Assembly (NCBI RefSeq): GCF_028275115.1
Contig: NZ_JAQCNH010000112.1
Coordinates: 1-64,000, forward strand
Direction: 5' to 3'
DNA from: Halorientalis sp.
Lineage (GTDB): Archaea; Halobacteriota; Halobacteria; Halobacteriales; Haloarculaceae
Length of the DNA stretch: 64,000 nt
Position numbers and translations under genes: made by a program. The notes under the pieces are model-generated. The model worked only from the letters and a program-made list of their open reading frames with translations, was not told where the DNA came from and made no database searches. Shown here piece after piece: positions 1 through 43,534 of the stretch (the first letter of the stretch is position 1; the number at the start of each line of letters is the position of its first letter).

Positions 1-292
1 GGTACGCGCCGTCCGTGGTGTGGCTCGGCTGGCCGAAGTCGTCGTACGCGTAGTCGTTCTCCATCGCGCCGAGAGCCTTGGCGACGACACGTTGTGTCGT
101 GTTCTTCACGAGGTTGGCGTCGGCCACGCGGTCGGGAATCGCGTCCCAATCAACGCCCTGCTTGGCGAGGCGGATGGTTTCGTTGTACACCGACCGTGCT
201 TCGAGGGTGACGTCGTACAGCAGTCTCTCGTTGTCACTCCGGGTGTCGAGTTGGAAGTCCAGCGTCTTGACGAGAGCCTGTGCGTCGGTCAT
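1..292 (-). CDS. tnpB: TnpB-family RNA-guided nuclease, N-terminal part (cut by window edge)
   Basis: The visible 97 codons begin MTDAQALVKTLDFQL and contain the YNETIRLAKQG block typical of the N-terminal region of haloarchaeal TnpB (IS200/IS605 family, IS1341 type). The RuvC domain and zinc finger lie outside the window, so it cannot be said whether the protein is intact. The ATG overlaps the stop of the upstream DUF2080 gene (ATGA), so the two are translationally coupled. Known for the family: TnpB is an RNA-guided DNA endonuclease that promotes retention of the element. Its start and coupling are visible; nuclease activity here is inference. Confidence 0.85.
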   Translation of the reverse strand, partial: MTDAQALVKTLDFQLDTRSDNERLLYDVTLEARSVYNETIRLAKQGVDWDAIPDRVADANLVKNTTQRVVAKALGAMENDYAYDDFGQPSHTTDGAY

Positions 293-444
293 TCTTCGTC
301 TTGATCGGTAGGTTCTGAGGTACGGACGACTTTCACGTCGGCCCCACGCCAGCGTTTGGGAACGGTGATGTAGGCGCTGTTCCCGAACGGCTTGACCTCG
401 CCGTCGAGAACTTCCTCGCCGTCGATTTCAAAGCGGTTCGCCAC
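289..444 (-). CDS. DUF2080 family transposase-associated protein, 51 aa
   Basis: A 51-residue ORF from a GTG start. Residues 2-13 are acidic, followed by the core VKPFGNSAYITVPKRW and a C-terminal acidic tail. This matches the DUF2080 proteins that precede tnpB in haloarchaeal IS elements. The GNSxxITVPK pattern is reminiscent of AbrB/MazE swapped-hairpin DNA-binding proteins (my inference). The stop overlaps the tnpB start by 4 nt. The likely role is as a small DNA- or RNA-binding partner or autoregulator of the IS. The start was chosen because no in-frame ATG precedes it. Confidence 0.8.
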   Translation of the reverse strand: MANRFEIDGEEVLDGEVKPFGNSAYITVPKRWRGADVKVVRTSEPTDQDEE

Positions 445-539
445 ACAAGTGGATATAACTAAACGTGTTGGTCGAGGGTGTGTCCGGAGGGGGATTGTTT
501 AAGAGGGCTTACGGCCTTCACTCTCGGGGTCAAGTGGTT

Positions 540-42481: not shown

Positions 42482-43534
42482 ATGGTTGAGGTGAGCGTGG
42501 AAACCACGTTCCGCAATCCCAGCCGTTCTCGCTGTCGAGAGTGGCAACGAGCCACCCACATCCTCCGCAAGTGCAAGCAATGGCTCGTGGACGGCTGGGA
42601 AGACGGCTCGCTCTCCTCTACCGTGACAACTGGCGACATCGACAACCCGCTCTACTCAGCACTCCAAAACCAAGCCATCCGTAACGCGAAGGGTGACTAC
42701 GACGACGAACCCATCGAGTACACGGGCGAGCAACCCATCGAGGTCAACAATCAAAACTGGGAAATCCACACGACTGAGAACGATTCTGTCGTCATCGGGT
42801 TCCCCTGCATCAGTGAGTGGTGGTACACACCAATTCACGTCCACGACAGCATCGAAGAGCCTGTGCAAGCCCTGCTCGATGGTGACGCTGAGAAGACGAA
42901 ACTCAGCGTGTGGCGAGAAGGCGACGACTGGCATTGCTCGTTCACTGTCGAATGCGACGAGCAACAAGACGGCGAGGAAACACCCATCGGTGTTGATGTT
43001 GGCCATAACTACATCCTCGCCGCTACGCCAGACGATGCGAGTGCTGACTCGTTCCTTGTGAGTGGCAAGGAACACAAGTTCGTGCGGCGGTACCACCGTT
43101 CCCTGCGTGACTCCCTACAGGAAACTGGGGCGCTTCGCGCCCGAACTCGCGTAGGTAACAAGGAGTACCGTCGCATCCAAGACATGAACCACACCCTCTC
43201 AAAACGTCTTGTCGAATACGCCAGTCAGTTTGAGAACCCCATTATCAAACTCGAAGACCTCGAAAACATCCGTGACGGTAGCGAGTGGAACGGTGTTCAC
43301 TCGTGGCCGTTCTACGAACTGCAACAGTTCATCACGTACAAAGCCGAGAAAGAAGGCATTCGCGTCGAGAAAGTAGACCCTGAGCATACGAGTCAGGAGT
43401 GTAGCCAGTGTGGTGAACTTGTTGGTCGTGATGGGAGCAAGTTCGAGTGTTCGAGTTGCGGGTATGTGCGGCATGCGGATTTGAACGCGGCTGAGAACAT
43501 TAGTCAACGAGAGGGTGAATCATGTACGGCGTAA
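42482..43534 (+). CDS. tnpB: TnpB, RNA-guided nuclease
   Basis: A 350-residue protein with an intact RuvC triad: D172 (IGVDVGHNYIL), E258 (IIKLEDLENIR) and D333 (RHADLNAAENI). The zinc ribbon has C307/C310 and C323/C326 (CSQCG, CSSCG). The N-terminal part (1-165) is the WED/REC-like region, shorter than in the roughly 400-residue biochemically studied TnpBs. The lower GC3 than neighbours supports its mobile origin. It should cut DNA next to a transposon-associated motif guided by an omega RNA; activity is inferred from intact residues. Confidence 0.92.
   Translation: MVEVSVETTFRNPSRSRCREWQRATHILRKCKQWLVDGWEDGSLSSTVTTGDIDNPLYSALQNQAIRNAKGDYDDEPIEYTGEQPIEVNNQNWEIHTTENDSVVIGFPCISEWWYTPIHVHDSIEEPVQALLDGDAEKTKLSVWREGDDWHCSFTVECDEQQDGEETPIGVDVGHNYILAATPDDASADSFLVSGKEHKFVRRYHRSLRDSLQETGALRARTRVGNKEYRRIQDMNHTLSKRLVEYASQFENPIIKLEDLENIRDGSEWNGVHSWPFYELQQFITYKAEKEGIRVEKVDPEHTSQECSQCGELVGRDGSKFECSSCGYVRHADLNAAENISQREGESCTA

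Follow-up and report, generated by a model that had tools for sequence, protein, structure and literature searches.

DUF2080 is likely to be the protein half of an autorepressor-operator cassette that has been shuffled among mobile elements: an AbrB/MazE-like protein that would bind a site in its own promoter and, we infer, repress it. Because many kinds of archaeal mobile element carry DUF2080, the protein probably serves to damp expression of the element and is probably not a partner dedicated to the TnpB nuclease. The copy studied here lies at the beginning of the window (the whole 64,000-nt stretch of Halorientalis sp. DNA that was analysed), where we recognised the following features.

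289..444 (-): DUF2080 gene, 51 aa, GTG start; open reading frame matching PF09853 and NF033496; proposed autoregulator
2..292 (-): 5' part of tnpB, 97 codons, ended by the contig start; open reading frame whose relatives have full TnpB (PF07282, NF040570)
289..292 (-): ATGA in which the DUF2080 stop and the tnpB start overlap; read from the sequence
451..459 (-): remaining half of the putative operator dyad, GTTATATCC; from the alignment of upstream regions, with 0 of 8 pairs at the fixed-register site in the window copy
454..463 (-): TATA-like stretch, TTTAGTTATA, read from the sequence and overlapped by the dyad in relatives; presumed TATA box
507..535 (-): candidate left-end block of the element (ACTTGACCCCGAGAGTGAAGGCCGTAAGC); similar at L120, L124, L128 and L134

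The 51-aa protein matched PF09853 (DUF2080) in Pfam with 26.1 bits against a cut-off of 21.5 (E 7e-6) and NF033496 ('DUF2080 family transposase-associated protein') in NCBIfam with 62.9 against 22 (E 1.5e-17), and its GNSAYITVPK core was confirmed. The first-pass annotation had described this gene as translationally coupled to tnpB. Indeed, on the minus strand the TGA of DUF2080 at 289-291 overlaps the ATG of tnpB at 290-292. Of 81 related loci, 34 have a gap of -4 between DUF2080 and the next open reading frame and 26 have a gap of 3 nt, so the tight coupling is not due to chance. Window position 1 is the first base of contig C1 of draft genome G000, which by sequence is closest to haloarchaea, and this contig start reduces tnpB to 97 codons; this fragment (2-292) had no TnpB match in Pfam and was named because of its relatives. 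About 11 bp are missing from the window copy at the place where relatives hold the second dyad half (GTATATCCAAAGGATATAC), and we saw no tnpA within the 160 bp that precede its DUF2080 gene. A search with NF033496 found four DUF2080 matches in the source genome, namely the window copy and copies on C43, C76 and C81. The C43 copy (L030) has no in-frame start codon near the expected place; those on C76 and C81 appear intact. On C76, the DUF2080-TnpB element has an AbrB/MazE (PF04014) match (G000:C76:6863-6982) some 0.5 kb upstream. The window also contains a second TnpB-family match at 43310-43501 (+); the start of its open reading frame is uncertain, and we detected neither DUF2080 nor an AbrB or RHH-like gene upstream of it.

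To describe DUF2080 loci in haloarchaea, we kept 80 of the 158 loci confirmed in a scan of GTDB genomes and added one from a scan of viral contigs, giving 81; searches of viral contigs gave one relative each for two queries and none for a third. TnpB directly followed DUF2080 in 73 of the 81 loci, 69 of them recognised by tblastn, some of these being interrupted, and four having a divergent TnpB (L123, L127, L168 and L173, with a PF07282 match in L123). In L125, L131, L132, L133, L135 and L137, a protein of 188-191 aa that we call X189 lay between DUF2080 and TnpB, with an X189-TnpB gap of -4 in four of the six; TnpB was interrupted in L135 and L137 and left only partial remains in L125 and L131. 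Locus L138 had X189 after DUF2080 and no TnpB that we could find, and L130 stops at a contig edge. Because the search profile came from TnpB-associated DUF2080 copies, the association in 79 of 81 loci is not an unbiased rate.

X189 is a conserved protein encoded by an inserted middle cistron in the DUF2080-tnpB operon. It matched no family over the cut-off in Pfam and none in NCBIfam, PHROGs or PADLOC; its structural model was weak (pLDDT 63.6), and a fold search with that model gave no significant match. Five TnpB C-terminal parts that we inspected by eye had the D, E and D motifs and the zinc-finger cysteines, and the patterns used for the catalytic motifs were too narrow, finding all motifs in 0 of 59 and then 2 of 59 proteins. 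A divergent tnpA lay within 400 bp upstream of DUF2080 in 37 of the 81 loci; in 31 loci, 53 bp separated its ATG from the codon at which the DUF2080 match begins.

Alignment of upstream regions revealed a conserved block immediately before the DUF2080 start codon. Diverse DUF2080 genes have a dyad of about 19 bp at this fixed place, and in haloarchaea it overlaps the TATA-like box. The group 1 site is GTATATCC-AAA-GGATATAC and mostly begins 25 nt before the first codon; the group 2 site is GTCTATCCATAGTCTATAC. Other DUF2080 lineages have sites of like build, and the IS66, IS1182, IS5-like and IS1634 loci described below have start-codon dyads of their own.

L004: GTATCTAC-ATT-GTAGATAC
L013 and L016: GTTGAAAC-AAA-GTTTAAAC
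L173: GTTGATAC-AAA-GTATAAAC
L023: CTATATGG-CTA-CTATATAG
L034 (IS66): AGATATCT-AAT-AGATATCT
L046 (IS1182): ATATATAT-TAA-ATATATAT
L050 (IS5-like): AGTATTTC-TATG-GATATACT
L056 (IS1634): AGGATATC-CATA-GATATCCT

We compared 90-bp windows from 38 protein-distinct representatives (<80% identity) with dinucleotide shuffles. At least 7 of 8 pairs were found in 12 of the 38, against 2.6 expected, although the loci are related and such counts are hence not independent. The mean was 5.97 pairs against 5.41 for the null, and the highest of 100 null means was 5.71; among AT-matched windows from the same loci, 5.4% of 1420 reached 7 pairs. The remaining 26 representatives had fewer than 7 pairs, and a clear site was lacking in several methanogen copies that stand alone. 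Without any choice of a best site, the register profile of 112 distinct upstream regions peaked 82-85 nt before the GNS codon, at 4.79 of 8 pairs against a background of about 1.8-2. The two halves of the dyad change together: at the fixed register, 63 distinct 19-mers averaged 5.13 pairs, compared with 4.02 (sd 0.12) after the letters of the 3' half had been re-dealt, and none of 2000 re-deals reached 5.13 under this null, which keeps the columns but not the relatedness of the sequences. The half-sites are also repeated directly with an 11-bp period (5.6-5.7 of 8 against 2.3). Group 2 sites are poor dyads, mostly with 5-6 of 9 pairs (or 5-6 of 8, by the count used), and are better described as direct repeats.

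The dyad goes with DUF2080. At least 7 pairs were present in 44 of 111 loci with DUF2080 (mean 6.3), compared with 0 of 20 TnpB genes without it (mean 5.0). Allowing three or fewer mismatches, the group 1 site occurred at nine places in eight genomes, seven of which had a DUF2080 match about 30-34 bp away, and one of the two places of the group 2 site in six genomes was at DUF2080; a host regulon served by the operator was therefore not supported. The first-pass proposal that the small gene encodes a regulator thus gains support from the conserved promoter dyad at the level of the family, the window copy itself having lost one half. One half-site has also been lost at L228, and both of these copies may be derepressed or decaying.

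PF09853 was found in 58 of 294 Halobacteriota genomes. From these matches, we took the 30 top-scoring loci, which are not a random sample and which by their sequence all lie outside haloarchaea. Their neighbours were IS66 transposases in 5 loci, IS5-like in 11, IS1634 in 2, IS1182 in 1 and IS481-like in 1, so that 20 of these 30 best-scoring loci from other archaea adjoin another transposase. The name IS5-like was given under the NCBIfam cut-off (45.8 against 140 bits), as was IS481 (186.3 against 224); we take the IS5-like neighbours to be ISA1214-like. One of the remaining loci had TnpB on the opposite strand, 558 bp away, and nothing was recognised in nine. The transposase lay downstream of DUF2080 on the same strand in the IS66 and IS1182 loci and was divergent from it in the IS5-like, IS1634 and IS481-like loci. 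Weaker DUF2080 matches at L209, L213, L214, L221 and L236 were next to DDE_Tnp_1 or SWIM/IS240-type transposases, and others were beside a DNA methylase (L215), phage tail genes (L211) or a Fic/Doc gene (L208).

Most TnpB-family matches, in turn, have no DUF2080. The 16 DUF2080-bearing haloarchaeal genomes contained 309 PF07282 (TnpB-family) matches and 28 DUF2080 matches, so at most 9% of the former could have a DUF2080 partner. For this reason and because of the other-transposase neighbours, we rejected a role as a dedicated TnpB partner. The first-pass annotation, which had proposed a partner of TnpB, had named common occurrence of DUF2080 apart from TnpB as an observation that would refute it, and this is what we observed. 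Nothing that we found points to omega RNA, the other partner considered in that proposal.

At L208 (541-1089), DUF2080 stands immediately before the Fic/Doc gene in an arrangement like that of a toxin-antitoxin pair. Stand-alone DUF2080 genes occur in apparent provirus regions at L206, L211 and L212, with a phage minor tail protein near L211.

Comparison of TnpB lineages showed that the dyad sequence tracks DUF2080 and not TnpB. L123 and L094 have TnpBs that are 27% identical, DUF2080s that are 94% identical and GTATATC-type sites in both; L168 and L170 likewise have 27% identical TnpBs, 85% identical DUF2080s and GTTGA-type sites in both. By contrast, L123 and L168 differ in their sites, with TnpBs 69% and DUF2080s 73% identical. 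This pattern is what exchange of regulator-operator cassettes between TnpB lineages would look like.

The small gene itself is also exchanged. We examined 60 TnpB loci from nine genomes, picked from the list of TnpB-family matches with known DUF2080 loci mostly excluded, and found a short AbrB gene directly before TnpB in eight, an RHH-like gene in four and DUF2080 in one. Several of the 60 TnpB open reading frames were mis-chosen or short (for example at L253, L270, L284, L287, L297, L299 and L305), and for that reason the absence of a small gene at such loci is not evidence. The short AbrB genes encode about 40 aa, and the two that we checked matched PF04014 (E 2.3e-8 and 8.7e-9). Of three RHH-like genes checked, two matched CcdA (E 0.0066 and 0.063) and the third had no match, which weakly suggests an RHH-like identity. 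TnpBs of L264 (RHH-like) and L268 (DUF2080) are 82.6% identical over 408 aa, those of L291 (RHH-like) and L012 (DUF2080) 83.7% over 418, and those of L250 (RHH-like) and L256 (AbrB) 89.8% over 430. Since unrelated DNA-binding folds replace one another beside near-identical TnpBs, DUF2080 most likely acts on DNA rather than on TnpB.

DUF2080 is itself likely to be AbrB-like, judging from profile comparison. Aligned by hhalign with an archaeal PF04014 profile, the DUF2080 profile reached a probability of 77.7% with 22 sequences and 79.6% with a broader set, and none of 200 column shuffles matched the score in either case (best shuffles 17.0 and 23.2, against 25.9 and 26.0); an earlier comparison with a smaller AbrB set had given 50.9%. 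Both VKPFGNSAYITVPKRW and G..VKV are kept in the alignment, which skips about seven intervening residues in the helix region. In hmmscan at E up to 10, the window protein had no PF04014 match, DUF2080 alone being reported. The AlphaFold2 (AF2) monomer was a weak model (pLDDT 73, pTM 0.40) with strands at 4-7, 10-13, 18-20 and 23-25; Foldseek found nothing for it at E < 1, and VIA-align gave no Z >= 2. Chains of 57-78 residues from VapBC entries made up 8 of the 50 Foldseek rows listed, including ranks 1 and 2, at an rmsd of 10-19 A and with every E > 1, a hint only; we take VapB to be an AbrB-type antitoxin. A search of the DUF2080 profile against solved structures gave two matches, both short and resembling chance hits (E 0.035 and 0.85). 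The AbrB likeness suspected in the first-pass annotation is thus supported by the profile comparison, and the structure searches gave no significant match.

The VK..GNSA.V.VPK.W...G..VKV core of DUF2080 aligns with the first hairpin, helix start and third strand of the AbrB/SpoVT/MazE family (PF04014), and a dyad in its own promoter is what would be expected of such regulators. Unlike that family, DUF2080 has no direct Pfam match to PF04014, lacks about seven residues of the helix region and has an extra, predicted N-terminal strand pair.

In the mechanism that we favour, DUF2080 would be a mini AbrB/MazE-like DNA-binding protein, probably a dimer, that binds the site of about 19 bp through two 8-bp half-sites, which are inverted and also directly repeated with the 11-bp period. 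Bound there, it would keep TBP/TFB from the overlapping TATA-like box, repressing DUF2080-tnpB and probably also tnpA where this is divergent. In haloarchaeal TnpB elements, DUF2080 is the first cistron of DUF2080-tnpB, sometimes of DUF2080-X-tnpB, and where tnpA is present it lies at the promoter region between the divergent tnpA and DUF2080. Elements of other kinds have it before, or divergent from, IS66, IS1182, IS5-like, IS1634 or SWIM-type DDE transposases. Upon arrival in a new host, an element would be expressed until enough DUF2080 has accumulated, and the element's enzyme would thereby be limited. Our evidence is computational throughout: it shows the gene order, the dyad with its fixed position, the joint change of the half-sites, their co-segregation with DUF2080 and the exchange of the small gene, whereas the fold, the dimer, the binding and the repression are predicted. 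Regulator and operator would travel jointly and be swapped between elements.

We also considered an inhibitor that works on protein. DUF2080 could be antitoxin-like, binding TnpB or the other transposases and restraining the nuclease; autoregulation would then be incidental, as it is in operons of type II toxin-antitoxin systems. Such a reading, which we regard as improbable, would suit the operon layout, in which a small gene overlaps that of a nuclease, as well as the Fic/Doc gene of L208 and the substitution of AbrB and RHH-like genes, both antitoxin folds, for DUF2080 before TnpB; it also agrees with PMC10440598, where SpnP2/DUF2080 (D146) was validated as the antitoxin of a nuclease toxin. 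However, the 94% identical DUF2080s that precede TnpBs just 27% identical, and the relatives that accompany unrelated DDE transposases, make a specific protein-protein contact hard to accept, and in haloarchaeal DUF2080 the core is followed by no more than a short tail. A combined scheme also seems unlikely, in which haloarchaeal TnpB elements would be toxin-antitoxin-like modules. An antitoxin-fold gene with its own operator, be it DUF2080, AbrB or RHH-like, would stand exchangeably before the RNA-guided nuclease, and its product would both repress the operon and restrain the nuclease. If that scheme were true, losing the element or the small gene would unleash TnpB.

An RNA-level role is quite improbable. 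Here the dyad would be a hairpin in the 5' leader, and an RNA-binding DUF2080, the RNA option of the first-pass annotation, would control translation or omega RNA. The dyad could fold in RNA, with an 8-bp stem and a 3-nt loop, but the usual departures from pairing are C-T and T-C and not G-T, the direct repetition of half-sites at 11 bp fits a protein on one face of DNA, and the site overlaps the TATA-like box. Moreover, haloarchaeal transcripts are mostly leaderless. Very improbable is an insertion-sequence accessory protein that binds the element ends and aids transposition, the site being the inner part of the left end: DUF2080 does occur with many transposase families and near the left end, but the distance from site to start codon is fixed while sequence farther upstream varies (37 of 81 loci have a divergent tnpA there and the rest have other sequence), and each of the seven DUF2080-linked group 1 places is the single one of its element, no right end having any.

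Regarding the autorepressor-operator cassette, part of the setting was already known: the association with transposases from family names, and the pairing with TnpB from the annotation of public records. To our knowledge, the control that keeps TnpB and transposase expression low in IS1341/IS605 elements is not settled, and a transposon-borne repressor with a recognisable operator would make this question directly testable. DUF2080 would gain a function, and its operator specificity should be predictable from sequence; regulator-operator cassettes would move between unrelated transposons and be replaced by AbrB or RHH-like genes. The system might also offer a repression switch for archaeal TnpB expression.

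The likeness to PF09853/NF033496 is one of profile membership, and the family name itself already points to transposons; these entries give no fold, operator or function, to which we add the promoter dyad, its swapping and the AbrB-like profile. The short AbrB (PF04014) and RHH-like genes before other haloarchaeal TnpBs share the place, size class and tight coupling of DUF2080 and differ in fold. The SpnP2/DUF2080 antitoxin (NetFlax D146) of PMC10440598 has the same domain name; its partner there is a classic toxin nuclease, whereas here the partners are TnpB or DDE transposases. An antitoxin role for a DUF2080 protein is thus already on record in that paper, the only one mentioning DUF2080 in the literature searched. 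The accessible parts of PMC12558985, PMC10134880, PMC8987985 and PMC9956272 mention neither DUF2080 nor its operator, and no small gene for a regulator preceding tnpB. In the literature searched, which mostly left out subscription papers, we found no account of the operator, of its joint movement with DUF2080 or of AbrB and RHH-like genes taking the place of DUF2080.

Finally, variable double-hairpin inserts of about 50 bp occurred upstream of L094, L101, L111 and several of L139-L172, and at 536-585 in the window. Some lie within the left end, others interrupt tnpA without shifting its frame, as in the TnpA of L094 with its extra SSKAKLCVPRGIFDPAQ.
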